Source: Diphasiastrum complanatum (Eukaryota; Streptophyta; Lycopodiopsida; Lycopodiales; Lycopodiaceae). Taken from it: DNA of 64,000 nucleotides. A program made the position numbers and the translations under genes. The stretch spans positions 40,728,130 through 40,792,129 of the forward strand of contig CM055110.1 in assembly GCA_029204225.1 (NCBI GenBank), read 5' to 3'. Every line of letters begins with the position of its first letter. The first letter of the stretch is position 1. The notes under the pieces are model-generated. The model ran no database searches. It was not told where the DNA came from and saw only the letters and a program-made list of their open reading frames with translations. Of the stretch, positions 2,870-60,624 are shown piece after piece.

Positions 2870-3596
2870 TTGAAGTGAAAAAAACTCAAATGATGAACAA
2901 TAAATGTTGCTACACACTCTCAATAGGATCCAATAATAGAGTACTATCTTCTCCTATGAAAGATCTTGCAACTATTTGCAAATTGATTCTCACTAGCTAC
3001 ACAAATCTCTCTAAAACAAGATCTATTTCACATCAAATGATGGAGTATAGGCAAAGTTAGGATCAAACACTCTTAGCACGTGTGAAGTACTCTAAGAAAT
3101 ACAATGATATTGCATGAAACAAAATGGCTAAGATCTCAAAACAGTGCCTAGATCACATATAGATGAGATTGGCAAGCATACAACTGTGATTTTGGATCAC
3201 CTAGGCAATCTCTTGACCAAACCAAATGTGTCCACCCAGGTCTAGGTGCCCTACCTAACCCTCTTCAAAAGCTTATAACTTTTGATTGGCTCAACCAAAT
3301 GGAATGAAACTGATCGCATCAAAAACTAGACAAAAATACTTCAAAACAAGCTATCAAGCAAGATAAATCGATCAAGCATGAGAGAGAACTTCCAAACCGA
3401 ATTTGGATGTTCCTCACATGTGTTTGAGCACCTGATTCCGTACAGTACCAGGTCAGACACAATCAATGTCCTCTTGATCTCTTTTGATCCAAAATTGAAC
3501 AAGATAGCTAGGAAAATGGGCCTTGACAATTTCTAGCTCAAGATTGATGAAAAGTTTTTACTTAGATGGATCAAAATGCATGGTAACCTTAGGTAG

Positions 3597-3608
3597 GCTC
3601 TGATACCA
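3597..3608 (-). promoter_or_regulatory. Primer-binding site of element E
   Basis: The complement reads TGGTATCAGAGC directly inside the LTR boundary. This is the plant copia site that pairs with the 3' end of initiator methionine tRNA to prime minus-strand DNA. Confidence 0.9.
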
Positions 3609-4362
3609 TGTTGAATTTCACACGTGTGGATTGTCCACAACATGTACTTGTGATCTCCTAAGGTGTGTAGATGCACCAAGATTAAGATTAGATTGAGATT
3701 CAAGATCAATCTTAGATCCTATGGCAAAAACACACTACTACATGCATTCAAACACTTCCAACTCTCACTCACATGTGTGGGAAGTATTTAAAAAATAATC
3801 TAAGTAAAAACAAGCTGCTCTCCTTGGGTAGAGAGAGAAAAAGCATCATCAGCTCTCAGGTAGAGAGAGAAAGCTAGAAATCCAATAACTCACAAAATCC
3901 ATAAAATCACCAAATCCATAAAATCACCAAATCAATTAGCTTCAAAATGAGGAGTACAATGATACTGGTAGATCCACGAGCTACCACTATGCCTAACTAT
4001 GATTGGACCATACTTTGTCACCTCTTGATCCTATTGGACCATTGATCCATGCACCTCTTAATTCTATTGGACTATATTCAAGCACACCTCAATTTCCTAT
4101 TGGACCTCACAAGGTTCCACCTCTAAATCCTATTGGACCTCTTGAAATTCATCCAACAAAAGCATTACACTTGTCTACACTCTAATTGGCACGTGTTTAG
4201 CCTCTTACTCTATTTTGGCTCAGTAGTGGCATTACAAGTGGAAATGCATAATTTGCCATCTATGTCAAATTTATTCTTATCAACATCCTACACCTAGATG
4301 CTTGATGTAAAAAACATAAGACCCCTATATCTAACATAGATAATCTTCTTCAATTCTTCACA
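3609..4362 (-). repeat. 5' LTR of element E
   Basis: This LTR is 754 bp with TG...CA ends on its own strand and abuts the primer site. It contains CACACGTGTG at 3619-3628 and four CTATTGGAC units at exactly 33-bp spacing (4031, 4064, 4097, 4130). An 18-bp direct duplication (ATCCATAAAATCACCAA type) lies around 3898-3932. It aligns by eye over nearly its full length with 53973-54709. Confidence 0.85.
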
Positions 4363-4787
4363 CGTACCTGCAGCTTTTGTCTCCTTGGGTCTGTGGTTGA
4401 TCCTTCCTCACCCTCCTTATCCTCCCCTTATGGCCATCTGCACTTTTTTTTTTCAACTACAGTTTTGTGTTTTTTTGCATTCTTGATGTAAATCCACATT
4501 CTTTTTGCTGTGGATCCAGATCCATAGGGGTCAGAATGGCTCTCGGAATGGACCAATCTACTATGCTAGCTATTCAGATGTCTAATTTGCATTTTTTTTT
4601 TTGAGCTATAGTTTTTGGTTTTTTTTGTTGCATTCTTCATGTAGAACTACATCTTTAGTTGTGGATCTAGATCCAAACGGGTTGGAATTGCTTTTGGCTA
4701 CCGACTAATGAATCAGTTTCATTGTATGTAGATGAATAAAGTGTCTTACAATCCCATGCGCCCCATGACCTAGAAGAAATTTTTGAC
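4363..4787. other. Unassigned T-rich DNA
   Basis: The stretch contains several poly-T runs and short CAGAATGG-like inverted pieces that resemble 24470-24580. No gene is seen. Confidence 0.4.
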
Positions 4788-5036
4788 ATGGCTATTTTAG
4801 AATACATGGGAGCACTCCCACAACGTCTTATTTTGGAATTTCTTAAGCCATTATCGCCATTAGCAATCGTAAGCAGGGTCGCGCACTTGACCAGCCTAGA
4901 AAAACAAGCATATAAAGGGCTATGTGAGAAGTATCATAACATATTTCCTTGGGATTATGATGATTTGAAAGGAATACTCCCATCCCTAGTTACTCATAGC
5001 ATACCACTCCTTAAGGGAAGTAAACTTGTACAATAG
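4788..5036 (+). pseudogene. Ty3/gypsy pol fragment (start of RT region)
   Basis: This 82-codon frame has the motif order seen just before the reverse transcriptase of Ty3/gypsy elements: a Tyr-rich helix, then F-x-W-x-Y-D-D-L-K-G-I-x-P, then T-H-S-I-P-L and a lysine-containing turn ending V-Q. In intact elements this leads into the RT palm. Here it stops at TAG and no YVDD box or other pol domain follows, so it is a short relic. No LTR could be linked to it. The identification rests on one motif block. Confidence 0.6.
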
Positions 5037-7260
5037 AGGCTCTATTTCGAGGTCTTTGTCATAAGTTTTGAGCTTTACAAAAACACTTATCTAAATTTAT
5101 TGATTGGGTGGCTGTTAAGCAAGTTTTGTTAGCAGTTTGTCTTTAATGTAATGTAGCTATATAATCTCATATTTTAAATTTAGCAAAACTCCAAAACCCC
5201 CACTTGTGATGAGCTCAAGTAGATCAATTATTTATTTCCTGAATACATCTATCAGATGAGTGAGAATAGTCAAGGAATGCATGCTAGGTTAGTTGGGTGG
5301 GATCTTACAAGGTCGGTACAGATCTCGGAATGCATGCTGTTGTTTCAAACAGTATAGGATTTTCTATTCCGATGTGTATTCTGATCTCTATTAAATTTTG
5401 AGCTTTTCAGAAACAGGTCTCTAAATTTATTGATTAATTTGTTTAGATAAGGTGACTTTTAGCAAGTTGCCTCTAGTTTTGGTTGTCCCCATCAATGCTC
5501 ACGCTCTCTTTTTTGCAAGTTAGTTGGTTTTTTAAAATTTCTTAGTTCAACCGCTTTTTTTTTTCTCAAACCTCCAGGTTCCTACAACTTTCAAAGTTGG
5601 TCGATTTTCATTGAAATTAGAAAAGTAAACTTGCAAGTTGATTATTAAAATTCTCTTAAAAGGTCGATCAAGCACAATTTAAAACTTGGTACAAACTTCG
5701 AATAGTCTATAACCCTCAATAACAAACTTAAATTTGAAATACCTTAAGCTAAGTTTGCCAAATGAGACTTAAAGAGTAATGCTACTTACTATAACATGTA
5801 TATCTACTACCTTAAAGTCAGTATAAAACATAGGTAGTTCAATGAATCTAGACAACATGAGGAGAGTGGTGCCTGATCCTACAGAAACACATTTCCACTA
5901 AAAAATATTGCAGCTCTATGTTTTGGTTGTGTAATCAAGTGAAGCACAATGTCACCCCCTTGTTACATCTTCAAGATTGGCTATGTAATCAACTGAAACA
6001 TTGTGCCTTTAGGAACTAGGATCCACATCCATGAGCTTAACTATAGCTTGCTCAAAAGAAACTTATACCCCTTCGAGTACAAGGCAATGCATGTCAAAAG
6101 TATAAGTGCCATAATGGTAATTGAGATGATGTAAAGCATGACAAGAGAGATGTAGTATTGTACCACAAAGGCCTTGCCATGTCATATTGGTGTATTTTAA
6201 CTTTTTTCGAAGATTAAAAGAATGTAGAAAAATAGCTTGATGGTTTTCTACAAATGTTTTATTGACTATGATGATAGGATTTTTTTAATTAATCCAACAA
6301 TTTCAGTATCATGGCAAGACTTCATGACACAATATAATTTAGGCGGTTATCTTTGAGCACTGGTCCCCATAATGTAATGTAGCTGCATAATGTAGCTCTA
6401 TAATGTAACGTAGATCTCTGAGTTGGGTGGGAATGTTCATATAGCAAGGGTCGGAACAGACCTCGGAATAGGTGGATCTCTTTCAGATAGTATACCACCA
6501 CCTATTTCGATGTATGTTCCAAGGATAAACATTAGCAAATTGTGCCGTAACAATGCAAAGTTTTTTTAATCTCATTATAGGACATTGAAGCCTCACTTAA
6601 TTTGATTTTTACCAGACCTAGAGTTCCTATTTGTGATTGTTGTCCATAGATTATAAGTTTCTAGTTTCAGAACTAGTTGGATAGCTACCCTTTAGTGCCT
6701 CAAATCATTTAGGTTTTCAGCCTACATTTAGCTTCTCTTTAAAGAAGACACCATAAGATGTTACATTCAAGAGCCCCAAATAGTAACCTACCCCAAAAAT
6801 TGTAACCCTTGTCTCATTCCAACAATACTTAGGAATGAATTCACACAATTGAAATGGGACTAGACTAAATTGAAATAGGATCAAGGTCGAATGCAAGTAA
6901 TTAAAATTCTCAATCCTAGGAAGGTGTGTAGCCCTTACTTTTCTCATGTTAAAGACGAGGTTCTAATCTTTCCTTGAATGGAAAAACATGCACACCACGT
7001 GGAGGGAATATGAGGTGACATTATGAAATAGGACATAACCGCAAGGTTTGGGAATTATAATCATCACATTCGACTCTAATGAAGGATTTAGGGTATGAAA
7101 AGAGACAGATTTATAGTTATTGAGTCAAAGCTACGGGGGCAATACCAATATATAGATTCATTACCATTTTTAATTAACAATAAACCATAAACTTTAAACA
7201 ACAATAAGGGACTCTAAACTCCCCTAAAATTGTGCGAAAAAAAAATGAAGAACTAAACCA
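5037..7260. other. Unassigned DNA with two copies of a foldback-like motif
   Basis: No gene is visible. Two similar segments, near 5278-5390 and 6418-6510, share GAGTTGGGTGGGA-like starts followed by GGTCGG-ACAGA-CTCGGAAT and an inverted ATTCCGATGTG or ATTTCGATGTATG. They look like diverged copies of a small palindromic element. The rest is AT-rich with no clear structure. Confidence 0.4.
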
Positions 7261-8070
7261 TGAGAAAAAATTAGGGCGTGCAATAGATTCTTGGAATATT
7301 AATGATGACATGAATCCATTGAGGATACAAAGGGGGTTCACTGGCTCTGGAATTAAGTTGTCTGTGCCGATTGGGTATTTCTTCTAGATATGATGCCACC
7401 GAAGGGGCCGATGGTGTGCAGGTTTTGGCATTATTGAACTTGATAGTTCACCACATCGAAGAGAGAAAAATGTTGTGGCTACTTCAAACTTCATAAATCT
7501 AAAACACAACATGAGTATCATTAGGATTTAAGCAAGTGTCAATGTAATTTGATAGAAGAAGGTCTTCTCATATTGAGTTTAAAGTAGCAGCATCCTTTTC
7601 TCTCTTCGATGCTATGAACTGATAAACTCAAGGACTGCCAAGTGCTTACACACCGTGGTCTTCTTCGGTGTCGTCATAGAAGAGACACCCCCTCATTACA
7701 TACGAGTCACTTGTAGGGCCAATGAGTGTAATCCTTAGTGGGGTTTAATTTGAATCATAATTAGTATTCCAACCATTAATAAATACACCCTTCATTTTTT
7801 TCTCATAGTTTTGACATTTTTATTTTTCCACAATTTTATGGAAGCTGCAAACTCCATTTTTTATGAACTTGAAATGGTCGAGAACGGACAATATATGTAT
7901 TGATATTGACGTTGTAGCTATAAATCAATATACATAAAAGTCTTGCAATGAATGTAAAAGTAAAAAATGAATGCATGTGAATATAATTATTAGTAATGAT
8001 AAATCATTCTTGTCAATTTCGTCGTTCTTGTCATTACAAAAGTCTTGACATCATGTCATAATACTAGCCC

Positions 8071-8149
<79 letters not shown>

Positions 8150-8231
8150 TACTTTTTTTTTCTATTTTTGAGACTCTCATTGGTTGCTTGTAGTATTTTT
8201 CTCTCTTATTCGAATTCCCTTGCCCATTATG
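7261..8231 (+). other. 5' flank of the transposase_24-like gene, shared with 57360-58100
   Basis: This flank is alignable by eye with the reverse complement of 57360-58100. Shared landmarks are TATTGAGTCAAAGCTACG, CACCACATCGAAGAGAGAAAA, AGCAGCATCCTTTTCT, GACTCAAGGACTGCCAAG, TGTAGGGCCAATGAG and the microsatellite after ACTAGCCCATGAG. It is therefore part of the repeated unit and may hold its promoter and 5' untranslated region. Confidence 0.65.
8073..8146 (+). repeat. (GA)n microsatellite
   Basis: An uninterrupted GA dinucleotide tract lies about 85 bp upstream of the ATG at 8232. The homologous copy on the other strand has a longer tract at 57446-57585 in the same place. Confidence 0.98.
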
Positions 8232-8952
8232 TCAGGCGATGCATCCCCTAGCCAGAGGTCAGGCCATAGTTTCGGATCATCCTGCTTTTTCTCTATGAGT
8301 GAGAATGATCCTCAGCTACCTTGATCAGTTGCCTTCCTCGCAGCAAGATAAGCTGTTAGAATGACTGAGGGCTCGACGAGTGGCTCATAACTCTAGCAAA
8401 ATAGTTGGGTATACATCATCCTCCAAGGAGATTCAGGTGACACCTTGTGTAGACCACACACATACTTCCCCTTCCCGTGAAGGTCACTCCGGCAAGGGTC
8501 CCTCCCTCACCCATGGCGTTACTTCCTCTCGACAGTCTCGGGACAAGAGGAGCTACCTCGGTGTCCCCTGTTGTGGAGGATGTGGCGATGACGATGATCC
8601 ACCTAATGTGGTCATGAGTCTTGTACGTCCGTGTAAGGAGGCAACATGTAGGGCACACGATACTGTGACTCCTCCATCTCTCACACCTGCGATTCTTGGA
8701 ACGCCCTCTTTCACCCCTCACATTTTCCCTACTTCTAGACCAACTGCCCTTGAGTACACCTATCTTTTCGACTATACTCTGTGGGGTCACACTTTACCAT
8801 GGGTTCAAGCCACTCCCCTCCAGTGCCCCCTAGATATTCTCCCCTCGGTACTCTCCCCCTGGCTATTCTCCCACCACAGCCTCAGTATTCTCTCGTCAGT
8901 GGGATGCTCCCATACTTGAGGCCACCCCCATAGACTCCCAGGGCCACATCTC

Positions 8953-14952: not shown

Positions 14953-15319
14953 TTGCATTAGAGAAGTTCTAAATCCAAAAAAGACCCTTTGTAAAGATTC
15001 TTTTTATATTTTTTCACAATTTTTTCTTACACATGGACCAATCAAAACACTCAAATTTGAAATCTACGTAACGTAACTTTTTGAGTCCACACTAAAAATG
15101 ACATAACTTTTTAGTGGTAAGTCCGAATTTAGCAAAGTTTAGTGCATTGGAAAGCGCTCAACAAGAGCTTTCCAATGATATGTTAGATGACATATTTTGA
15201 GCTATGATTAAAAAGTTATGGCAAGTCAAAAGTATTAGTGTTATAATATTTTAATAATATAAACTACATCTTGCAGAATTCTTAAAGGGTCTTTTTGGAG
15301 CTCAAAACTCCTCTAATGA
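14953..15319. repeat. Small inverted-repeat (MITE-like) element
   Basis: The left end CATTAGAGAAGTTCTAAATC plus AAAAAAGACCCTTTGTAAAG reappears inverted at 15268-15319 (AAAGGGTCTTTTTGGAG ... CTCCTCTAATG). A perfect-arm hairpin around 15147-15178 (CATTGGAAAG / CTTTCCAATG) lies inside. No coding capacity is seen. I could not find a convincing target duplication. It interrupts the transposase_24-like gene. A related left end is present at 43498. Confidence 0.7.
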
Positions 15320-24353: not shown

Positions 24354-25228
24354 TTGATCTCTATATCATACTCTTTTTTGGAGCATTGTGATTAAAGCTT
24401 TGGTTCTGCTGCAAGTTTTTTAGACTCCAATTTTTTTTTGTAGGTTTTGATTAAAGCATAGGTGGCGTGGAATTTACGGACGACTATGAAAAGATATACA
24501 AGGGTTAGAATGGTTGTCAGAATGGGGTGATCTACTAGATTTGGTATAGCGGCGCCTATTCTGAAGGCTATTCTGATGGCCCATTCATCTGTGCATATCT
24601 AAGCATTGCATCAGATCTCAATCAGTTTTGTAGATCCATATTTTTTGTATTCTAGAGTTTTTTGTAGATCTATGCATGTTTGTTGTACTTTGTGTAGATT
24701 TAACTTTTGTTTTAATAGATTTGCTTCTTTTAAATTTCTTTTGCATAGTTTAGATTTGCTTGTAAGAATATTTTTTGTATTTTTCAAATAAGAACTGCAG
24801 TTGTTCTATTTTGCAAGTTTGTTTGTTGTTTCTATGGCCGATCACCATCCGAGCAGCTAAGGCACAGATTTTGTGACAGAACCAGGTAAAGACATGGTTG
24901 CATTAGGGCCATTTTGGGTCTCAAAAAGGGCCTCTTCACTAATTATAATTAGTGTTAATGATGACATGTGTAGCAATAAGAGAGCGACAATTGAGATGGA
25001 ATGGTCCATATGACATGGCACATCCAATGGTGTACAATGGATCTTTAAATTCTAACTCACCCACTAACCCTCCTCTAACTCTACTTCCTCAACTCACATT
25101 AATGAAAGTATTGCAATGGTACAATTACTATATTTTCAAACACTTCAAATAATTTATTTTTCAACTTAGAGTGAGAAAAAAGGGGGCCCATTATTTCTTT
25201 GGGCCTCATTTTTAAAGACAAATTCAAA

Positions 25229-37377: not shown

Positions 37378-38154
37378 ATGGGATCTGCTGGAGCATACCT
37401 TCTAGAAGCTAGTGAGAGGTTGAATTCTACAAATTATGCTATTTGGAAGGTTAGAATGGAGTCACTCTTAGTGCTCCAAGACCTTTATGAGTTCTTGATT
37501 GAAGATGAAGATGAACCTCTAGGTGCACAGGAGTTAGCTAGATACAAGAAGAGATCTAGGCTTGCACTTCATTGTGTGAAGATGAATGTGAGCAATGATT
37601 TTTTGAGAGAAGTATCAGCTTGTAATAATGCTAAAGAGGCTTGGGAGTCTTTAAAATCAATCTATGAGTCTAGCAACACTTCTAGAGTTCTTATGATTAG
37701 AAATCAAATTTTGCAAAGCATGAGGAGAAGTGAGGAGAGTGCACAGGATTATGTACTCAGAATCAAGTCTCTAAATAGGGAGTTGGCTTCCATTGGAGAG
37801 AAGATTCATGATGGAGAGCTTGTACAAATTGTCCTTAATGGTCTAGGAGATGACTTTGCAAATTTGGTCCAAAGTTTTGCCATCCAAGACACTTTGCCAA
37901 CTATAGAAAAACTTCACAGTGTATTAGTGGCTGAAGAGTGTAGGATGCTCCATGCAAAATCTAGGATGAGTTCCTTGTCGTTGTGGGATGGTGATGAGAA
38001 AGCCAATTTCTCATTCAAGGGCAAAAAGAAGACCAATGGAAAGAAGAAGCATCCAAAGGAGGCCAAAGAAGAGGATGATGCATCAAGCTCAAAGGACAAG
38101 TCAAAGCAAAAATGCTTCTTTTGTGGAGAGAAGGGGCATTGGATTTCTGCGTGA
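37378..38154 (+). pseudogene. copia gag, truncated in the zinc knuckle (element D)
   Basis: The ATG at 37378 follows a purine-rich AGTAAG context and matches the start of gag in element C. The frame is fully open for 258 codons. It includes the gag core (E-R-L-N-S-T-N-Y-A-I-W-K-V-R-M-E-S near residue 12 onward), a helical region ending V-L-V-A-E-E-C-R, a basic Lys-rich tail and the first part of the knuckle, C-F-F-C-G-E-K-G-H. There the element sequence ends. The next residues W-I-S-A and the stop come from unrelated DNA, so the fourth metal ligand (Cys) is missing. The capsid portion is intact. Confidence 0.85.
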
Positions 38155-39862
38155 CTTAGCTGCACCTTCTTCCATTGAATGATCATATCTTCAATTACCT
38201 CCATCTTTACTAAATTAGCCATCCCTACTATCACAGAGAATTCAGGTACTAGATGCATGCATTCTTGGAACTGAAAACCCGAAATAATCATGATTTTATA
38301 TCTATGCAAGCACCTTTGAAATACAGGCTTTACAGAAGCAGGGAGAAAGACCAATGATTATTTAGCAGGGAGTAAACAGTTTCAAGGAGGTAATTGCTCC
38401 CTCTCTACTCAGCCTCACATCCAAACTTACTACCAAAGAGTTAGCACAACTGCACAGCCAATCCATGTTCCCAAAACATGCAACTACACGGGAGGATAAA
38501 ACCTCTGATCCTCCCGGAAATCCTGGTTTCTTTTTTCACTAAGAGTTCATATCACATGAAAAATTGATTTAAAACCAATCTTTCAATGAACAGAAGCTCA
38601 AAAACAGGATTCAGGCATAACAGACTCATGCAATTTACGGTAATCCAAGAGTAAGCATAATCAAGCTGTTAGACAAGCATGTGACTAACTTTGGGAAACT
38701 TTTTGGGTTCGAACCTTTTTTATTTGAATGTAAGTAACGTAACTTTTTTTATGGATTTTTTCATAAAGCATATCCAAGTTTTGTTCTGGAATGTAGTTAT
38801 AGTGCAACATATTCTATTACAACCATGAAAGAAATAGATTTTTTTATATTTTATGATTGTATTTGATAGTTGGATTTTATAGTTCATTGATCAATTTCAA
38901 GTTTCTTTTAGGTGCAACATGGATGAGTAAATGCTATATTTATCAAGTTTTTTTGTAGTTAATTATCCGTGCATCACCAACAAGTTGAATTGGGCCACAC
39001 TTTATTAAGTGAATATACGCTTCTAAAATTGTGATTAATTATCACATTGTATGAACATAGAAAACATAGAAAACTTACAACTTGAGAATTTCAAAGCTTA
39101 TTTAATTCCATTTAAAAATTCTTTGTAACAATATTTCAAGAGTTTTGAAACATATTCACTTACCTATTAATATAATTCCACCTAAATTGATTTGAATAAT
39201 GGTTTTTTAATTATTGATATTACAAATTCTATGACTTTATTTAAATAGTGTTGGGTGCCATCTCGAATAATTGTTGTTTGGAGTTGTATTTAATAAGTGG
39301 AAAATGCTCATGGGCTTTGAACACCATTATTCAAATTCATATTATGCTGCCTACCTCGACATGAATACACTCACGCTTACATGGGATCAAATGTCAATTA
39401 CGCCAGGTAGCAAGTGTGAGTAGGATCGCTATCGAGCAAAGTGGTCATGACCACCTATCTCTTGATGCAGAGCGGCATAGTAAGTGATGAAGACACACTA
39501 TGGCGGTCGATAGCAAGCCTGCTCATGCCTGTCATTACCTAGTACATAATTGGCTGTCTTTCTTCCATGCATTCCATGCATGCCAAGAGACAAGGTGATC
39601 TATAATATACGTCATAGGAATCATTGCATCATAACGATGTAAAATTTGTAATAAAAATTACAAATATTGCATTCTAGAGACTTAAAAGAATACTTTTGAG
39701 AAAATTCATTTTAATTCTCAAACTCATGCAAGAGTGATTAACACCTAGCTTTAACAACAAAAGCTAAAATCAAAAGAATAAAAATAATTGGACACATACT
39801 CCATCCATTTTCTGCATCCAGCTTGCTATGTTCGTGCTCTCTCTCGCTCGCTCGCTCGCTAT

Positions 39863-39863
<1 letters not shown>

Positions 39864-39931
<68 letters not shown>
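39864..39931 (+). repeat. (CT)n microsatellite
   Basis: About 34 CT units follow a short CTCG/GCTC repeat. The orthologous position in the second copy is 51691-51811, which is longer. Confidence 0.97.
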
Positions 39932-39935
<4 letters not shown>

Positions 39936-40148
39936 TGTTCTTTAAAGTTAGCAAGTATACTGGAGCCCAGACATTCTTACTAATTTCATCACTGAAAAGG
40001 TAAAAGAGTTTGTTACTGATTTGACCTATTCGTAGTTAATTTCTTTCCTCCTGATGACTACTCATATAATGTATGCATGTAATTTTTGAAGATTTCTTGT
40101 TCAGTACCTGCTTTATTTATGAAAATTAGGTAGCTTTCATCTAATTTC

Positions 40149-40305
<157 letters not shown>

Positions 40306-40612
40306 AACCATCAGATTGTTGTTTTTGGGACTGTATTGGTGGTAAAAGGGTATCTTACCCATCTTCATCCTCAAAATCTATAAGTTATTACATAGAACCA
40401 AAAACTACAACTAGCTCCATTCATATTGTAGTTCAGATTTTCATTCAATCTCTTTAGTTTTTTCTGCAGAAGGCTCTGGGACTCATCTGAGTACTGATTA
40501 AAATAAGATAATCCACATCACTGGCGTAGTAGGAAAACTTGGCCTATGATCAAGTAGATAATAAGTGCAGAAACTACAATACTCAATTTGTAGCCTTCTA
40601 TAATTCAATAAA

Positions 40613-41641
40613 ATGGTATTGGATTTTGAATCCGCCCGACAGTCAACCTACTCAGAGCATGATATAAATGTCGATGTCCTCGAAACAATGGCATTTGTGA
40701 TGGATTTAGAGCCCCACCTGTTTAGAACTACCCATATACAATGTTCCGTTGCAGATAGGAAGTTAGCCATCGTGAGAGTGCTATGTATTGCGGGCTATGA
40801 TGCTGGCATTTGCAGATCAAAATGGAGGGGCTTCAATATGAAAGGTCACTTTCATCTCATCTCATTTCCGTCTCGTGAGTTTGATTGCACATAACTTAGT
40901 ATTCAATCTTGTGAGTTTCTTGAAAAATTGAACCAAGTCTTGGTCTATGTTGTTGTCAAAATTACAGAACACACCTACGAATACATCGATGTTGCTTTTC
41001 ATCAATTACAAAAAAACAACTCATGGGTGACAAAGAGGTTGATCGTGGACACGGAGTTTCGAGATCATTTTGAAATTGCACGTGCAAGTGAGGAGTACAC
41101 ACATTTGTTGCAACAATTACCTTCACCCTTTGTGGGTTTTGGACATGAGTTGTCAGGTTTTATACAATGCATGTGTCAAGCTGCCGCAATATCCTTTCAC
41201 AAAATAGGCATGGGTGTTCCTCCTTGGAGAGAAGTAGAACACCTGAGCAGCCTTTGGTTTTCTAATTATAAGAGATTCATCTCAACCCATCACCATTTTG
41301 CTGGATATGATATGTGCTTCCACTATCACATTAATCGTGATGAACTGTACCCTGCCTATGGCTTAATTTGTAGTTACTCATGGACTTCAGAGCTACCAAG
41401 GCGAAGACCTATATTTGAGAGCCTCAACAGAAGAGTAAAGAGTGCCACATTGGAGAGTATTATATGTGAGATTATGGGTTGTGGTTGTAGGTTTTATGAA
41501 GTGAAGAACGAATGGCAACCACCTCCGGTGAGTCCAGAAAAAGCACCAACATCAAGCAAGAGAGCCATGGGAGGTCTTTCATTAGCCTTTGCCATGCATC
41601 ACTATGAAGAAGGAGGCAATGACGACGTCGATCCACAATGA
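40613..41641 (+). CDS. DUF506 / PDDEXK-like family protein (two exons)
   Basis: Exon 1 is 40613-40874 and exon 2 is 40968-41641. The inferred 93-bp intron begins GTGAGT and ends TTACAG. Removing it joins the frames in phase and brings the two family blocks together, giving about 311 aa. Blocks in order: V-L-C-I-A-G-Y-D-A-G-I-C-R-S-K-W (~60-75), E-Y-I-D-V (~92-96), R-L-I-V-D-T-E-F-R (~111-119), F-E-I-A-R (~122-126), P-S-P-F-V-G, then G-V-P-P-W-R-E-V-E-H with a downstream W. This is the plant DUF506 pattern, a predicted PDDEXK-fold of unknown biochemical role. The start is the first ATG of the frame, after ATAAA. No transit or signal peptide is obvious. It is the best candidate for a working host gene here. 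Pseudogene copies lie at 25891-26523 and 52371-52574. If the intron is not removed, the protein would stop at 94 codons. Confidence 0.8.
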
Positions 41642-43497: not shown

Positions 43498-43625
43498 CAT
43501 TAGAGGAGTTCTCAATATCAAAAAGACCCTTTGTAAGGATACTTTTATTCTTTTCTTTAGTTTCGACCGTCACCAGGCCCAATCAAAATGCACAGATTTG
43601 AAATCTACATAACATAGTTGAAATT
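43498..43625. repeat. Inverted-repeat element end related to 14953
   Basis: CATTAGAGGAGTTCTC followed by CAAAAAGACCCTTTGTAAGGAT and AATCAAAA-GCAC...TTTGAAATCTAC matches the left ~120 bp of the element at 14953-15319. I found no matching right end nearby. Confidence 0.6.
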
Positions 43626-43928
43626 AACTAAAAAATAAAAATGCAATATAGAAAACTTTGAAATTTGTGTCCGGGCAGCATGGACGTATCCCATTGGTTT
43701 TTTTTTCTTGCCCGACACATGCTAATCTGTCCGACGTCAATATCTCAAGTTAAATTTACTTTACTATGTTGGTTAGTATAATGAAATTTTCTAACTATAC
43801 TAGTTACAGTTATAGAAATATAGTATGTACAGTTACATAGAATATGGTATACGCAGTAACTGTGACTATGTTGTCATTCACATTAGATTAAATGTGATAC
43901 GAAAAATTAAAATCAAGTAACATATCAG

Positions 43929-45378
43929 AGAGCTCCCAAGCTTTGAAAATAGCAATTGCGAGGAGACCCATATCTACAATCGATTCTGTGATTCTTTACA
44001 ATGAGAAAGATGAGGCTGATAACTGGAAGCCAACAAAATATACGAAGAACTCATGTGTATTGCTGCATCCATCATCAAAGGGCAATTTTCGACAAAAGAA
44101 AAGAGCAAAAATGACTTACAAATCTTATTGGAAAGCAAAGATTTTGGAGTTTAAGACTACCCCGGGAGGTCAATCGATATCAGAAGTCTTATTGTAGCAT
44201 GTATATATGCATTCAGAAATCAAAGTACATGATATCAATCCTCATGATCATCAAAAATGTAATTGTAAGTATATCAAAACATATGCACTCTACAACAATC
44301 ATAGGTGATTTTCTTTATTGATGCTCTTCAAATTATGATTTAAATGCTTCAACATTGTTTTTTTCTTTCAGATTTATATCCATCATGCATAAGTGAATGG
44401 GAGCCCGCACAATCACTTGCAAGAATATTAGACGTGATTCACTCTGATGTTGGAAAGCTACAATACAAAGGAAGAAGTCCAAAGGATCTTGCAGATTGGG
44501 GTATCTATTTTTATGAATCTTTATATACGCCACAAACAGATGGAGGTTTTGGCAAGCTCGAAGCAATTCCATTGCCTAGTTTTCAAAGTGATGAGTGGCC
44601 TACTCCTGACAGCATTGTTTCTGAATCCTTGAGATGCAAGCTACTCATTGATATTAAAAATGCTATGAAGATAAGCACAGGCTCCAAAATTATTCACCTA
44701 AGTTGGTTTATCTCATTGCATACATTTGTTGATTTTTTCTCGAGTGCTAGTGTTCGTAGGACACCAACTTTATTTGTTTGCAAGGATTTATCAGATGAGA
44801 CTTTGTCAGATCTCATGGATCAAGGCTGGGATAGTAAAACAAATAATGACATAGAATGCAGGATTAAAAAGTACTCAATGATCTTTTATTATCATATCAA
44901 AAAGCAAATGCTCAGTCTCACATTTAGCTACTAGAGATACAAGAAAATTGAAGGTACATGGCTACCACTGGATCGAGACTTTGAACTAAATGGTCACACA
45001 AACCGAATGGAGATAAGCATTATCTACAATGAGGAATATTTGACTATGGTTGAGGTGGAAGAGCACTGGAAGCTTGATTTTATCATAAAAGAGCTCATGC
45101 TATTACAAACCAATCTACCAACATATTTTAGATTTATCATCAACGGAAGACTCGTAAGTACTTTATGTTTATTGCCATTTCAAAATAGAACAAAATAATA
45201 GAAAATGTCATCATTTACAATTGCACATTCACTAATATTTGCCATGTCACAGATGCGAGAAAGACAGGAGCTGATAACGTGCTGCAAAGATCTACCTACA
45301 ACAATCACCATTATGGGAGAACAATGGTTTCAAATAAACTTTAGTAAAAATCTATGTATACACCCTTTCATTCAATAA
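43929..45378 (+). pseudogene. Unknown multi-exon gene, upstream member of the 43.9-49.5 kb cluster
   Basis: Inferred exons are 43929-44168, 44372-45153 and 45253-45378. The junctions GAG|GTCAAT...TTTCAG, CTC|GTAAGT...TCACAG keep one frame, giving about 382 codons to TAA at 45376. The first donor is the weakest call, and the true 5' end may lie further upstream because no ATG opens exon 1. One TAG (44932-44934) interrupts exon 2, yet the same frame stays open for 73 codons on each stretch around it. The product is hydrophilic to mixed, with W-E-P-A, W-G-I-Y-F-Y-E and several Trp/Phe-rich stretches. It has no signal peptide and no domain I recognise. It is convergent with the histone-fold gene (45523-47258), whose stop lies 145 bp away. 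It may be a decayed gene of a mobile element or an unknown plant gene. Confidence 0.5.
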
Positions 45379-45522
45379 ATGAAAGCCCAAGTTTGGCATC
45401 TATACATGTATTTTGTGCTTCCAAATTCATAAATTGGAGTAGCATTTGATATATCAATGTATATTTTTCTATAAAGTCTATACATGTATTTTTGTTCTAT
45501 GCTATCTATATTTTTTTTTATC

Positions 45523-47258
45523 TTAATTTAGTACAACTACATCATCCTTTGCACCATCATTAATAACGGGAGGCTGAAGCCTTGTCCGAGCCAGTATACT
45601 CAGGATAATTTCTTGTCTAAATCTGTACACCTGGCTTGATGTGTACTCAGGTTGTGTAAACTGCAAAATAGAACATTCATGTATTAGTAATGGCCAATAA
45701 CATCACCACAATAGAAAACTAATCATGATTCCAAAATAAGAATAAATAGAATTTATTACCTTAGAAATATCAACATCTTGTTGAAGGATGAACCACTCAA
45801 AAAACAGCTTGGCATTGTACAATGTGTACCACCCACAACTGAATGAATCATTTTGCTGGGGTGATTGCAAAATAATTCAGCACACAAGAAATCAATTATG
45901 AAACAGAATGAATTAGATTGAAAATATTTTATTAGAATATTGATTTCAAAATGCTATTAAGAAAGAAGAGTTTACCTCCAAGCTGACGATCTGCCAGTCT
46001 ACGGAATGGGGAACGTTTGTAGGAATATATTTACTTAGATATGGAATGAATATATCTACATCCTTATGCGTATTTCTCGCCGAATTCATCTTGACACAAG
46101 AACATTTAATAATATTATTCACAAATCGCTTAATAGAGATCAGGTTTAAACTCCAGTGGTCACTGCAAAATAAGATTGAAAGTACTTTAGTGATAATTCT
46201 GAGAACTATTTAAATTGAAAATGTCAATGTTAATGCATAAAACAAGAAGAAGCACTTAATATATCTTACTTGGTATGATAAGGAATGTCCAGATACTTTG
46301 TTGCTGGTGTGAATCCACTTGTCAGACACTGTGACAATGTGTCATTATTCTCCTTGAAGGCCTGGAGCAGAAAGTTACTCAGCACCAGCAACTCGTTTGA
46401 TGAATCTCTTGCAATGTCAAATTGCAAGAGTGTCAGCCCGGACTCTATCACAGGATCACTAATAGAAGCCCGTCTGTCTTTGAGATCCAGACAATCTAGA
46501 ACTTTAAAATTAATACTAAAATCAAGTTCTTCTAGTCTAAAACAAAAAGGAATACCAATTGTATCTATAGCATCCGGTATGTCTTTCTCAAATTTAAGAT
46601 AATCATCCGAATCTATATATGTATAGAAATTGGGAGGAGGAGGAGGAGGTGGAAGTGTAGTATCTACAGCAATATTAGGAGTATCCAGAATAGAGGTAGC
46701 TATATTTACAGCATTATCAACAGCAACATTATCTACAATGGATTCTGGGATAGGCTTCACTTTCTTAGGAGCACGCTTGGGGGCTGTCTGCTTCCTAGGA
46801 CGCTTCGTAGGAAAATGAGTCCTATCTACAAGAGTTGGTCTAGGAGCAGCAGGCTGAGATACATGTAACCTACAGTACCTATCCCTCATTCTGATCAAAA
46901 GCTGAAAATCCTTGGGCATTATGGTAACCCTCTTGGTATGGATGGCAAGCAAAAAAGAATTCTAAAAAAAAAGACTAATATAATCTTCAACAGCCTCCTG
47001 AAGGCACTGAAGAGCACTCGGCGTGAATCTAACGTGCTGTCCGAGATCATTTCTTGTTATGTTCTGGACAACACGATAGAATGGAGCTCTTGGGATCAAC
47101 ATAGCTATTGACCTCTGATACTTGCGTATATCAGAGAGCCACCTGCTGCGGTTGCACGTTCTAGGTCTAGCAGGGGGTGTGATGGCAACCGCAGGAGATG
47201 AGGATGAGCCAGGAGAGAAGAAGTCTCTCCTTGTCTGCTTTCTCCTATCCATGGGCAT
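45523..47258 (-). pseudogene. CENH3-like histone fold fused to a Ulp1-like (C48) cysteine protease domain
   Basis: Inferred exons are 47258-46270, 46162-45976, 45855-45760 and 45660-45523. All introns are GT-AG with pyrimidine-rich acceptors and all junctions are in phase, giving 469 codons. Residues 1-40 are a basic tail without the H3 ARTKQT motif. Residues ~41-128 follow histone H3: D-I-R-K-Y-Q (44-48), L-I-P-R-A-P-F (54-60, the CENH3 rather than H3.1 form), R-F-T, L-Q-E-A-V-E-D-Y (86-93), then A-I-H-T-K-R-V-T-I-M-P-K-D-F-Q-L (105-120). Codon 99 is TAG where H3 has Glu. A Lys/Pro linker has eight prolines in a row. Residues ~230-469 resemble Ulp1/SENP proteases: H332-W333, Gln393 and Cys399-Gly with the family's six-residue Gln-Cys spacing. 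The triad Asp is unclear (possibly Asn356). Such proteases cut SUMO-like conjugates and occur in plant DNA transposons. Only the stop argues against function. Confidence 0.7.
46962..46964 (-). other. In-frame TAG in the histone fold
   Basis: Codon 99 is TAG in the run CTTTTTTTTTAGAATTC. Alignment to histone H3 needs no gap on either side and places it at the Glu of L-F-E-D. A single G-to-T change from GAG would produce it. The T-run also resembles a splice acceptor, but no upstream donor would keep the aligned fold. Confidence 0.85.
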
Positions 47259-48083
47259 GAACTATGTGATAGCGGACTTGTGCGTAAAAGTTAGGATGAG
47301 AAGGAAGGGATGAGAAAGAACTCGCAGAGGACCGCTATGTACGGACAGAATATACGGTATATCGGACCTATGCGAGCCGATTATCAGAGAGAACGATTAG
47401 ATTTGAGAAAAGATGCAAAGTGCGATATGGGATGACACGTAGGAAGAAGTATCGGACCTGTGCGCATGGAAGGTAGTAGAAGGAATTTTGATCGTGAAGG
47501 ATGCGCACAAATGCGATATGCGAAACGAAAAAAAAAGTGAAAAAAATTCATCGAAATTTGTGATTTTATATCGGGGTTCGCACGTGCGAAAGAACGTCCT
47601 GTCACACATGTGAGAGTTGTACGGACAAATGCGAGTGCGACACGTGTCACTTTGTCACACTACACATGTGGGATTTGTATGACCGAATGCGAGAGCGACA
47701 CGTGTTTATAAGCACTCGAATGAACACGCGATACATGTCTAGGTGTCATTTCACACGTGTGCAGGTGTCATCTCACACGTGCCTGCACCTGTTGTCGAAT
47801 TGAAAGTAGATACGTGTCATAAGTCCGTTGACCACACGTGCAAAAATTTAGTATAAATGGCACGGAAACCGAATAATTTTTTATCTTTTGCTTTCTCAAA
47901 ATTAGAGACATATCGCTTTTGTGCGCGCTCATTTCTGTCCGTTTGCTTGCAAGTATACCTACTCATGCACAAGTGCGATATTCTGTATCTATTTGCCGTA
48001 CATATCCATCTTCTGCGTCATTTTGATTGTTAATTTTGGTTCAGTTCTCCCACGCGCACAAGTGCGATATTCACGCTACTGCC
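47259..48083. promoter_or_regulatory. Divergent intergenic region with six CACGTG boxes and a TATA box
   Basis: CACGTG occurs at 47581, 47641, 47699, 47754, 47776 and 47835. The first four are 55-60 bp apart, inside imperfect tandem units that also share CACACATGTG/CTACACATGTG, ACG/GAC-AATGCGAG and GCGACACGTG. TATAAA at 47852 fits the plus-strand gene starting at 48084. TGCGATAT recurs at 47421, 47512, 47974 and 48063. CACGTG is the plant G-box bound by bZIP and bHLH factors, and a role here is inference. Confidence 0.7.
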
Positions 48084-49472
48084 ATGGTCTCTTCCTCATC
48101 ATCCTCACGAGAATCATGCTTGAGTTCATTTTTGAGTGAATTTGCGATTACTGAAAATCTGGACTACTTCCACAGCCTATTCAGGCCTTATCTACATGTT
48201 TTCAGGACTGCACAACCAAATTCTCACGTATTTTATGAACATTATGTCAGATTCAGAGATATACTTAGCAAACCCATTTTCTCCATAGGTCAACTCCAGT
48301 ACATGCATTATACTGATCTTGATCATTTCTTCCCGACTTTTAGACATAGACTGGATAGAATGTTCACCAAATTGTTTGATCTTTTCAAAAGTAGTTCTAT
48401 GTGTCCGTATTGCAACAAGAAATGTCGATTGGTTGAATATCAGAGTGGTTTCGTACTTTTTCTTTTAGTTGAAATCCCAGATGATGATGAGTTTCCTATT
48501 GCTAGCCCTCCTTTTGCACCCTCCTCTATTCAGTCAGCCATTAAGGATATCAGTCACTTTCTTATCGACACTCTTGATAAAGAAAGTGACTTCATTGATT
48601 TAAATACTGATGTTCTCCGGGATTCTTTCATTGGCCAAAATACATTTGATGATGAATCCAAATCTATGGAAAATTCGAAAAGTCTTTTCAATTTGTCTGT
48701 ATATTATATTAATGACGATGTACATTTTATTACTGCTTATTTATGTAAATTTTTTTACTATCGTGAGGACGAGGTTCTATGCTTATTATCCGGCACAATT
48801 TTCAAATTCTCCGACTTTGTAAACTTGGAGACAGATGACCTTGTTGCTGGTATTGATTTTGATGATGAGGAGGGTCTCTTGACCGGTGAAGAATGCCACC
48901 ATAGAATTTAACGGGAAATGAAATCATTTTTTTTTATACTTTTGATCAGTTCCCAACAATTACAAATTTTTCAATATAATTGGACTGTTTCCTTTTTTAT
49001 TGACCAGTTTGACATTACTCTGTCAATTTTAAGAAAACTATCAAAACAAAATTACATGAATGGAAATTCTAGCAATAGGATTTCAGTAACTCTTAAACTG
49101 ATCCAAATAAGATTTCACTGCTCGGATAAAGAGTACTTGTCATCACTCATTCTATTTGGTCATTTCATATTATTTGATGGTTTCCAACTCAATTTTGACG
49201 AGTATCTTGCACAAACGTTAACTTGATCCATATCTAATGATTAGCAGAAATATACTAGACAAGTAACCCATTCCAGATTTGAACTAAACTTGAAATTCAA
49301 TAATAACAATAATAAATTCAATTTTAAATTTGTCACTGGGAAGAACAATGCTTCCAAAGTTTTTCAGTCACCATCAAACATAGTACCAGAAAAATTTATT
49401 TATTTTGAACTGGGTACCATCTTGGAAGAGATAATCCATGAGGAACAAGTATGTAATATTAAGAAACGTTAA
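48084..49472 (+). pseudogene. Unknown gene with CxxCxxxC motif, divergent from the histone-fold gene
   Basis: The ATG at 48084 has a good context (CTGCCATGG) and lies about 230 bp after a TATA box. The first frame is open for 275 codons to TAA at 48909-48911. The same frame then runs open to TGA at 49224, and again after a TAG from about 49245 to TAA at 49470, which suggests an ancestral product of about 460 codons broken by stops. The N-terminus is Ser-rich, and C-P-Y-C-N-K-K-C at ~107-114 may bind zinc. Asp/Glu-rich stretches follow (D-D-D-E, D-D-E-E-G). I recognise no family. A 275-residue protein could still be made. The shared promoter region suggests co-expression with the histone-fold gene. 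Confidence 0.5.
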
Positions 49473-50165
49473 TGAACATTAACAACTATTAAATCTCAAA
49501 AAAATTTCAAACAAAAATTGCCAAAGTTTTTGAGAGTTGCAAGTACATTTATATCTTAATATTGACTCTGACTTTTATTTCTGTATGAGATTTTGATATT
49601 TACATAATGGATTCTTTGTGATAATTACGCCCAGTTTTTGGGCTTTTTGAAAAGCATAAAATGTCACTGAATTTTTTTTAGAATTTTTATATAATTTTGA
49701 ACCACAATCCAAACGTGCGTCAGACTGCGTGTCAATCCGCGTCATACTGTGCGCGTCAGACTGCCATGTGGTAGTTTCTCATTGGTCCAAAAAAAACCAC
49801 AGTGCTGATTATGCTTTGTAAATGGCATGTGGAAAAGTCAAAGACTCCATTACGCAATGGAAGGAGCCGGGCACAGGCCATTCTGCCCGGTTCGGCTTTC
49901 CAAAAAAATTTAGGCTCGGACCCTCCAGGCCTTGCCCAATTTTTTTTGGAAATCCTTACCGGGGAGAATGGCCTGTGCCCGACTCCTTCCATAATACGTA
50001 ATTACTTGAATTTGAAATCGTAGGCTACACATGTCCCTTTAAGACTAAGGGCTGAGAGGCCAAAAAACCCTTAAAACACAAAGGGTTTCGAAGAAGGAGA
50101 AAACATAAAGGGGTCATGAGAGAAGAGGCCATGACTGCCCACGCCATAACAGGGTCACGCTTACC
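49473..50165. other. Intergenic DNA with a GCGTCAGACTG-type tandem repeat
   Basis: At about 49716-49765, related units (GCGTCAGACTGCG, TCAATCCGCGTCATACTG, GCGCGTCAGACTGCC) follow one another. No gene is seen. The foldback at 49858 is listed separately. Confidence 0.5.
49858..49991. repeat. 134-bp foldback element
   Basis: The left arm TGGAAGGAGCCGGGCACAGG continues CCATTCTGCCCGG and TTTCCAAAAAAATTT. The right arm is its inverted copy ending CCTTCCA. Pairing covers about 50 bp per arm with a short loop. Flanks GCAA and TAATACG give no clear duplication. It could fold as a long hairpin if transcribed. Confidence 0.85.
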
Positions 50166-52565
<2,400 letters not shown>

Positions 52566-53054
52566 AGTTTATGATTGTATTTGATAGTTGGATTTTATAC
52601 TTCATTGATCAATTTGAAGTTTCTTTTAGGTGCAACATGGATGAGTAAATGCTATATTTATCAAGTTTTTTTGTAGATAATTATCCGTGCATCACCAACA
52701 AGTTGAATTAGGCCAAACACTTTATTGAGTGAATATACGCTTCTAAAATTGTGATTAATTATCACATTGTATGAACATAGAAAAGATAGAAAACTTACAA
52801 CTTGAGAATTTCAAAGCTTATTCCATTCCATTTAAAAATTCTTTGTAACAATATTTCAGAAGTTTTGAAACATATTCACTTACTTATTAATATAATTCCA
52901 CCTAAATTGATTTGAATAATGGTTTTTTAATTATTGATATTACAAATTGTATGACTTTAATTAAATAGTATTGGGTGCCATCTCGAATAATTGTTGTTTG
53001 GAGTTGTGTGATGAAGACACACTATGGCGGTCGATAGCGAGCCTGCTCATGCCT
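52566..53054 (+). repeat. Third, partial copy of the same segment
   Basis: This copy is homologous to 38848-39295 and then, after a deletion of about 180 bp, to 39484-39530. It directly follows copy 2 and ends where the copia fragment F begins. Confidence 0.85.
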
Positions 53055-58410: not shown

Positions 58411-60624
58411 ACACACAGAGAAAAAAAAAGAGAACATAGTAGAGTTATCACGTCCATGGCCAGTAAGTAGGATTCAGTATACTCCTAGTCTTGGATACAC
58501 GGTACTCCGGTAAATCAAGCTGTTAGTTATGCCACGTCATACGGATGTGACCCAAAACTAACTAATATCCTTGTGAGGCCCAGAACACACTAAATGGAGT
58601 TTAGACAAGATATGAGACAATGTATGCATGTGTAGAGTATCAATAGAAATTCTATGGATAGTTGGTCCATGCTTAGGACTCTATTTTAGGTGAATCTATG
58701 TATAGGGAGCTTAAGGCTATGCATGGCTATGTGCCCAGGTTGCTTTTGGCTCTATACCCACCCTACTCCTCATTGTGGTCATTGGTTCATTTCCAGGGTT
58801 TCACTCTACCTTCATGCTTCCTATTCCTTGGCTTGGGGATGAAGCTTCTATAGTTGATTGGTTGCTTCTACTTGGTTGGGTGGTTGCTCCATAGTGTGTT
58901 TTCCATTGTGTTTTGTCTTGTAAGCAAGATCTTAGGGAGCTTCCCTTATAGTGGTATCCAAGCAAGGCTTACGAAGATTGGAGAACTCGAAGGCAAGCTC
59001 TACATGGGAAAGGAAGATCGAAGTAGTTGGTATTACATCTCGGTTTCAGCCCAGGTATATGATAGAAATGAAATTGTTTCAATTTTTTTCTACAGTAATT
59101 AATTTTAAAATATTTACTAATGATGATGACAATGATGATTGTTCAATCATCATTGTCATCAAATCATGACATGTTCAAAATTGCTTGCAAATTTATTGAA
59201 CAAGAGAGGAGAAATACTCAATGTAAATGTGTGACATGTTCAAAATTGCATGCAAATTCATGGAACAAGAGAGAGGAGAAATACTCAATGTAAATGTATT
59301 GATTGTATTATAACAAAATACAAAGTGTCCACTATTCATCATCAGCTTGTGTGTCAGCTTCTATGGCAGTATTGTCATGAAAAAATTCTCTGCTAGAGTA
59401 TGCATCTAATAGATGTGCATTATCCTTATTTTCACTAAGTTCAATATAAGTAGAGTACAATGAATAATGAGAGCTCCTTAAAAGAACATTCCCATCAGTA
59501 AAACCTAGAATGTTCAAAACATAAGATCTTTTAACGAAAATGATCTTATTTGTCTTAACAAATTTATGTCCTCGTAGATAAAATGATAAAGCTTTAACTG
59601 CCATTATCAGAGTCTCCCCAGCTGGGCTCAACTTTGAATGAGCAATACAGGTCTCATTCTTTAGAAAATGCCTAAGATAGTAAAAAAAAAATACTTATTT
59701 GCTCTGGCAAGCCAATTAGAAGTGGTCCAGGCCAAAAATTTTGATTATCAAAAACCACCCAGCATTGCAACACGATAATATAATCTGGTGATTGGCAGCT
59801 GGTTGTGGACTTTATCGGATGACAACATTTGGATTGAATGCCAAAGAAGGTAGGCAATCATCCCAACTGGTAGTAATATTTTCTAGCCTATATATTTTGG
59901 CATTCTGAATCCATCTGTCAGGTCGACGAAAGTTAATTAGGATTGTAGGATGCTCGGCGAAGGTTTCCAAAATGGTAAGTTTATGAGCATTCGTCTAACT
60001 CAAAAATAGGTATCATCTTTGGAAAGGAACCTTCGCCCAACTCAGTATAGAGAAATCTGAGGTGGATGTATGATCTGAAATCTCAATGAAGGTTTCTAAG
60101 ACCATATGTGCAAAATATGACCCAAAAAGTGATTTTCTAAGTCATTTTCCGTCAAAAATTATGTTTTAAAAATTCTTTCCTTTCTCTTTTTCCATTCTAA
60201 TGACTTTTTTGACTTTTCCTCATCATTTTTCATTTTCTTTTTTTTTTTTTTGTCTTTTTCTTTAAAAAAAAAATCACTCAAGTAATAAAACACAAGAAAA
60301 TTGTAGAACAATCAAAATAAAAATGACAAGGTATTGGATCACTTTGATTGAACTGGCTGATATGGCTGCCAAAACTTGCATAGTCGACTGTCATTCACCG
60401 GAGTGTCAAATCTTTTTCCGTCCAAATGTTCTAAATGACCGCTCCATAGCTCAATATTTCTTTCACTCTATACGGTCCTTCACCTGTGAACTTCTATTTG
60501 CCTTTAATCAATTTCATCTTATACATTAGTGCTAGATTTCCTTCCTTCATATCTTTTTTGTGTAATGGGCGACTGTGCCATGCCTTGCGACGGGCTTTCT
60601 CTGCTGCTAATGCATGAACTGCCA
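58411..60624. other. Unassigned DNA, possible minus-strand relic
   Basis: A 99-codon minus frame (59631-59332) has a faint resemblance to Ty3/gypsy RNase H (a helix, Y-L-R-G-H), but it lies downstream of the integrase fragment, the wrong side for gypsy order, so I leave it unassigned. A direct repeat (GTGACATGTTCAAAATTGC ... GAGGAGAAATACTCAATG) occurs at about 59166-59226 and 59230-59294. Confidence 0.4.

Follow-up and report, generated by a model that had tools for sequence, protein, structure and literature searches.

Few proteins are as conserved as the histones, which are also the substrate of transposon silencing. The nearest structural parallel to the locus described here comes from Dothideomycete fungi, whose hAT elements carry H3-like genes, as exemplified by H3L of Pyrenophora tritici-repentis (PMC3538342); in the Pseudocercospora clade, an H3-like gene is likewise found in hAT elements (PMC6710886). 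According to its authors, H3L has an altered tail and fits fully neither H3 nor CenH3, and they raise altered chromatin as a possibility (PMC3538342). The fungal cases are described either as having expanded recently, with 26 near-identical copies, or as remnants that have mutated (PMC3538342, PMC6710886). The nearest functional parallel is provided by the Vandal MULEs of Arabidopsis, whose VANC proteins are anti-silencing factors and in which some anti-silencing proteins, in the context of Kaonashi/KIU and VANC, carry a Ulp1 domain (PMC13317346, PMC5735166).

The locus studied here lies in a 64,000-nucleotide stretch of Diphasiastrum complanatum DNA, analyzed as a whole and referred to as the window, and belongs to a multi-copy DNA transposon bounded by terminal inverted repeats (TIRs), of which it is a truncated copy with a stop. 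Like the fungal elements, this transposon combines TIRs with an H3-like gene and many copies. It differs from them in its plant host, in giving no hAT match, in showing no 8-bp duplication at one tested site, and in its four-gene set across diverged subfamilies, the selection on its histone fold and the C48 fusion in one subfamily, S1. With the Vandals it shares the organization of a multi-gene plant DNA transposon and an accessory gene that encodes a Ulp1-like domain. Vandals, however, are non-TIR MULEs, whereas the elements of subfamilies S1 and S2 are bounded by TIRs and gave no match to a MULE transposase, and the review on Kaonashi/KIU and VANC contains no mention of a histone. Within the open-licence literature searched, we found no transposon-borne histone–C48 fusion.

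The locus is a truncated copy of a TIR DNA transposon

The preliminary description of this DNA had proposed a single gene (gene H) in which a CENH3-like histone fold and a Ulp1-like protease share one spliced frame. Much of this reading was borne out on the minus strand from 47258 to 45523: three GT-AG introns join four exons in phase, about 90 residues of H3-type fold match PF00125 over its cut-off (residues 28-125), and the motifs LIPRAPF, EDY, PKDFQL, H-W and Q-x5-C-G are all present (Table 1). The profile search that it had called for placed both domains of the spliced translation over the curated Pfam cut-offs, with X at the stop, for PF00125 at E=2e-25 (89.9 bits against a cut-off of 26.4) and for PF02902 at E=3.9e-6 (27.3 bits against 20.7). 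The pairing of the two domains in one frame is real, but the description had overlooked an in-frame TAG, the single interruption of the spliced frame, which falls between EDYISLFF and NSFLLAIH in helix 2 of the histone fold, at the position of Glu105 in H3. The introns are all located downstream of the fold, so that none of them splices the TAG out, and the window copy of gene H is therefore broken. A structure prediction from single sequences gave a mean pLDDT of 42.8 for the window histone and 30.7 for orfC.

Table 1. Features of the element copy and gene H, in window positions
Feature	Positions	Strand	Remarks
Truncated S1 transposon copy	43498..48897	-	blastn against S1a
TIR, element end, CATTAGAGGAGTTCTCAATATCAAAAAGACCCTTT	43498..43532	+	
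orfC upstream exon region	43898..44197	+	exon limits approximate
orfC large exon	44371..45153	+	in-frame TAG 44932-44934; that codon open in S1a
Gene H (histone-C48)	45523..47258	-	ATG at 47258, stop codon 45525-45523
Exon 4 of gene H	45523..45660	-	
PF02902 match	45613..46304	-	residues 319-440, spans exons 1-4; coordinates converted by hand
Intron 3 of gene H	45661..45759	-	GT-AG, 99 nt
Exon 3 of gene H	45760..45855	-	C48: Q-x5-C-G
Intron 2 of gene H	45856..45975	-	GT-AG, 120 nt
Exon 2 of gene H	45976..46162	-	C48: DHW
Intron 1 of gene H	46163..46269	-	GT-AG, 107 nt
Exon 1 of gene H	46270..47258	-	H3-tail-like start, histone fold, linker
Histone fold, PF00125 match	46884..47177	-	residues 28-125; profile match, coordinates converted by hand
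In-frame TAG in histone fold	46962..46964	-	
Spacer between divergent gene H and orfB	47259..48083	.	basis: position only
orfB first exon	48084..48911	+	cut by element break; S1a homology stops at 48897
Same-family fragment, orfB last exon region	59163..59681	+	separate, opposite orientation

What had been described as a single fused gene turned out to be part of a larger unit. The window copy corresponds to positions 3295-8681 of S1a, an S1 element of 8681 bp on C7, at 94.5% identity by blastn, and has no counterpart to its first 3294 bp, which form the transposase side. Dispersed copies with differing flanks are bounded by TIRs, as in a TIR DNA transposon: those of S1 are 35 bp long and both were found in S1a and in a further element, S1b, while S2 elements end in the related sequence CATTAGGGCCC, with both ends present in L013, 6404 bp apart. 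High copy number and TIRs together rule out a unique host fusion gene. The alternative suggestion in the preliminary description, a mobile element carrying a nucleosome module, is supported by the TIRs, the many copies, a linked transposase-like gene and selection on the fold. Within the element, genes H and orfB are transcribed divergently, and the spacer that separates them is likely their common promoter region.

Target site duplications are a feature of most TIR transposon superfamilies and measure 9-11 bp in MULEs. The flanks of S1b match an empty site in a gag sequence at window positions 37819-38118 with no gap and no repeated base, and hence there is no target duplication at the S1b site; none was seen by eye in the flanks of S1a. 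L013 allows no clean test of duplication, as one of its flanks is an inverted copy of the other.

The window contains other mobile sequences. Further ends of the same transposon family lie at 24901-25032 (S2-type left end, 88%) and 14956-15075 (S1-type right end, 77%), and Copia-like gag frames are present. Direct repeats at 38312-40806 and 50163-52564, about 91-95% identical and spaced 11.7-11.9 kb apart, flank the element fragment, and parts of them (38847-39287 and 50709-51124) recur at 52565-53007. An LTR element was considered because these repeats lie on both sides of the gene; by eye, their ends show no TG...CA, and the end of the transposon falls between them, at 43498. At 49857-49992, a 59-bp foldback, 88% complementary and with an 18-bp loop, resembles a small hairpin element.

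Copies and gene set in the genome

In the genome searches only the best candidates were scored, so that the counts below represent minimum values and linkage is stronger than it appears. A PF00125 search of the 1.74-Gb genome returned 153 matches, of which 150 were scored, from 6325 candidates. Thirteen places score at E about 1e-45, and the two of these that were read (L001 and L002) are canonical H3. Well over a hundred matches are diverged histones (1.6e-28 to 3.7e-24), about 35 of them in open frames of at least 300 aa. Three further matches, short ones with E about 1e-20, include one exon of a canonical H3 gene that has introns (L059). With exon 1 of S1a as the query, at least 122 copies, the window included, were scored from 9915 candidates; by hand count, 24 of these 122 have no internal stop.

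Twenty 10-kb stretches around histone matches, mostly picked for long open frames, together with four more, reveal the mobile element. S1 and S2 have four genes in common, namely D (a putative transposase), orfB, orfC and the histone gene H, with about 27-56% protein identity between the subfamilies and differing relative orientations. The gene set of two diverged subfamilies thus includes an H3-type histone. At least 120 copies of gene D were scored from 13805 candidates, many of them free of stops. Gene D gave no Pfam match over cut-off, no PDB match and no IMG/VR match, and its pieces matched neither the hAT nor the MULE models of Pfam; together with the S1b site, which has no duplication, this sets the element apart from both hAT elements and MULEs, Vandals included. 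Its motifs KLDEAEIVKG, ADLKTLKC...CIYC and HFCTMHGEL give the impression of a zinc-bound DDE-type core. We infer that D is the transposase from its linkage, copy number and association with TIRs rather than from a profile match.

For linkage, the 120 positions of D were compared with 227 non-canonical histone positions, canonical H3 and the three short exons being excluded. Thirty of the 120 D matches have a histone within 10 kb, where 0.31 would be expected, and in 25 of these 30 pairs the spacing is 2.99-3.78 kb. The predicted place was read for five of ten D copies with no listed histone; histone sequence was found there in four, as one unbroken match in L061, while L062 showed no similarity. 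The spacing and the recovered histones indicate that the histone is a usual neighbor of gene D.

Individual stretches show rearranged or additional histone genes. At L055 (C17:8897200-8898200, minus strand), a deletion joins a coiled-coil-like part of D in frame to the histone fold, yielding an open frame of 391 aa. The 10-kb stretch of L028 contains two diverged histone ORFs, one of a third type, S3 (4900-5241), and one S1-like (7929-8201), with an S1 terminal repeat between them at 5998-6019. A further long-branched type, S5, is found at L060 (C13:7457800-7458500), with AQHAKRVTLMSHD.

The histone and the C48 domain

The element histones have an H3-like tail start. S2 genes start with MARTKQTARDPR, the H3 amino terminus with D replacing K9; across the 13 S2 copies read, K4 is present in all, and the K9 position is D in 11 and G in two. 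Only in L009 do tail and fold share one open frame: an indel splits them in L010, L012, L018, L019 and L024, and the remaining copies have stops in the tail or between tail and fold. The S1 tail begins with MDRRKQTRRD and has the K4 equivalent in 25 of 26 copies and D at the K9 position in 25 of 26. In S4, the tails begin with MARTKQTAR (L054, with a stop ahead of the fold) and MARTKQTVR (L057), each followed by L, and L056 has no visible tail. The single S3 copy (L028) begins with MARTESTARA and has lost K4 as well as K9; no tail was seen in the S5 copy. Overall, K9 is replaced in all four subfamilies with a visible tail and K4 is kept in three of the four, while canonical H3 of the same genome reads ARTKQTARKST. 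By eye, the element histones show no K27-like stretch.

In the fold, seven of the 23 tabulated positions (R69, R83, H113, K115, R116, T118 and D123) are invariant in all eight element folds compared; these positions bear on DNA contact or the tetramer. R63 is replaced by P in seven of the eight, as in plant CENH3 (two sequences). CENH3 is marked by an extended loop 1 and by W84. S1 has one extra residue in loop 1 but F at position 84, and S2 has no extra residue and V84. The S4 folds have W84 and DSMLC...RVTLM, as in plant CENH3. The window fold lies over the PF00125 cut-off, and for the close copy S1a the best 60 of 177 PDB matches are all H3. A tree of 12 rows separates the element folds from H3, CENP-A and CENH3 by one branch (91/87).

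The CENH3 label of the preliminary description is therefore only partly apt: the CENH3-type motifs and P63 are present, but the best PDB matches are H3 and S1 has F84. Similarity to plant CENH3 and CENP-A lies in the H3 fold, P63, the divergent tail and, in S4, W84; the linker and C48 domain behind the S1 fold are unlike either protein. The CENH3 reading of gene H appears weak. An Arabidopsis CENH3 query placed the 13 canonical-type H3 places on top and diverged histones below, and revealed no host CENH3 among the 150 scored matches.

The C48 part was sought in eight stretches, six of which have all splice anchors; L026 has no C48 part, and L028 gives only a 43-residue match at 46%. In common with Ulp1/SENP (C48) peptidases, the domain has an H-W, kept in all six S1 copies read, and a Q-x5-C-G segment, kept in four (in L016 the C is replaced by Y; L025 is missing the segment and shows AA at one splice acceptor). 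Stops interrupt the C48 part of L014 and L016. Unlike in these peptidases, the catalytic Asp position, as aligned to SENP8 by eye, is occupied by C or G in all six copies, which leaves the His-Asp-Cys (and Gln) set incomplete and makes peptidase activity doubtful. Similarity to solved members is weak, the best PDB match of the S1a C48 exons being SENP8 at E=0.64. Taken together, the S1 domain looks degenerate. The S2 histone gene stops right after the fold, and so the C48 part is a feature of the S1 branch. A genome profile search for C48 gave three matches among 150 scored, none of them a listed S1 exon-1 copy because exons were scored separately.

Changes in the C48 exons are few. In exon 2 of the six copies, pN/pS is 0.28 for shared variants (8 synonymous, 9 nonsynonymous) and 0.62 for singletons (6 and 15); in exon 3, the counts are 1 and 0 for shared variants and 7 and 8 for singletons. 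Between the two S1 clades, divergence in the C48 part is no higher in the introns than in the exons.

Selection and possible roles of the element histone

Selection was assessed in 26 S1 copies (27 were gathered; L047 was dropped for a frameshifted patch) by comparing variants shared by at least three copies with singletons, which are mostly post-insertion changes; two-copy variants were left out. The tests assume independent sites. The copies were the best-ranked ones by protein score, a choice that should lower the singleton ratios as well. In the S1 fold, pN/pS is 0.228 for shared variants (29 synonymous, 24 nonsynonymous or stop) and 0.684 for singletons (23 and 57; p=0.0036). The corresponding values are 0.358 and 0.919 in the linker (p=0.0017), 0.31 and 0.81 in the whole of exon 1 (p=9e-6), and 0.387 and 0.678 in the N tail, where changes are few. 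For S2, variants in at least two copies were counted as shared: across all 14 copies the fold gives 0.355 against 1.036 (p=0.13), and with four near-duplicates removed 0.148 against 0.921 (p=0.042). Methylation-driven decay was also considered; singleton C-to-T changes in exon 1 show no CG or CHG excess.

The lower pN/pS of shared variants means that the histone was selected as a protein: purifying selection acted on its fold as the element multiplied. We are thus highly confident that this is a selected histone gene of a transposon. Selection of this kind suggests that the element uses its own H3 to shape or escape host chromatin control. In the mechanism that we propose, element-encoded H3 would pair with host H4 in nucleosomes. 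With the K4 context kept in three of four subfamilies, K9 lost and no K27-like stretch seen by eye, such nucleosomes could not receive H3K9 methylation, and element copies or their promoters would escape heterochromatic silencing, so that the element stays expressed. The role of C48 would be accessory, as a binder of SUMO or of a partner or as a weak protease. Considered as a whole, this account seems to us evenly poised between right and wrong; the anti-silencing step, taken by itself, is a serious possibility but somewhat less likely than not. We propose more tentatively still that the elements represent an undescribed superfamily of plant DNA transposons, with CATTAG-type TIRs and no target duplication, that may long have kept a selfish H3 whose K4 is retained and whose K9 is replaced, giving nucleosomes that host K9 silencing could not mark, one branch having a C48 domain in addition.

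Some observations count against this account. K4 is lost together with K9 in the one S3 copy, which speaks against anti-silencing, and a histone-using element is harder to reconcile with the single S2 copy in 13 that is open from tail to fold, or with the fold stop that the window copy shares with five others of 26 S1 copies. The comparison of C48 introns with exons between the S1 clades likewise counts against it. At that codon, the 26 copies have TAG in 6, GAG in 12, GAA in 5, AAG in 2 and AAA in 1, so 20 are open. The six TAG-bearing copies are scattered on the tree and do not form one clade, and S1 copies may therefore have moved without an intact histone of their own; the shared TAG may reflect a broken gene that spread in trans, conversion among the copies or the same change arising more than once.

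The main rival to an anti-silencing histone is a chromatin tether, in which the histone, with C48 where present, steers the integration machinery to certain chromatin, for example that of centromeres. Such targeting would fit the CENH3-like W84 and DSMLC...RVTLM of S4 and the P63 of seven folds in eight, but the S1 fold scores best with H3, and 88 diverged histone matches on 13 chromosomes of known length form no clear single cluster (KS p=0.06; 5, 5, 15, 3, 4, 18, 11, 10, 9 and 8 by chromosome tenth); we regard a tether as unlikely. The same residues of S4, and P63 in most other folds, would also be compatible with a rogue CENH3 or H3 that competes with host histones at the kinetochore or for supply and so favors the transmission of element-bearing chromosomes. 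The Arabidopsis query found no host CENH3 gene among the 150 scored matches, and we assign this reading the slimmest chance of those considered.

A different division of labor would make C48 the active part and the histone fold its address, as in the histone-targeting deSUMOylase suggested in the preliminary description. The PF02902 score, the conserved H-W, the Q-x5-C-G of four copies and the lower shared pN/pS of exon 2 (six copies, few changes) point in this direction; against it stand the replaced Asp in all six copies, the stops in L014 and L016, the poor SENP8 match, the stop within the window fold and the S2 gene, which ends before any C48 part. The deSUMOylase reading is consequently weak, and a histone-directed SUMO protease improbable. 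Finally, a captured H3 gene could have been copied along as a functionless neutral passenger, as in most transduplications, and the many broken copies (24 of 122 S1 exon-1 copies free of internal stops, one S2 copy in 13 open from tail to fold) point this way. It is nevertheless disfavored, and very improbable, given that shared variants bear the mark of purifying selection in S1 and, less strongly, in S2, and given the retention of the histone across subfamilies whose other genes are 27-56% identical.

If the account of an H3 that evades K9-based silencing is correct, a selected transposon histone that is devoid of the silencing residue and mostly keeps K4 would be a counter-move in a chromatin arms race, and the element histone would offer a natural test of the role of K9 in silencing. 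Even without anti-silencing, it is unusual for one genome to hold a family of transposon-borne H3 genes with first-look candidates in the thousands, and counts of "histone" or "CENH3-like" genes in such genomes can be mostly transposon.

The 80-bp left end of S1 is identical at all 40 places scored, from 1280 candidates, although the interiors of S1 copies are several per cent apart. This contrast suggests that a burst occurred recently, perhaps among non-autonomous relatives of shorter length.
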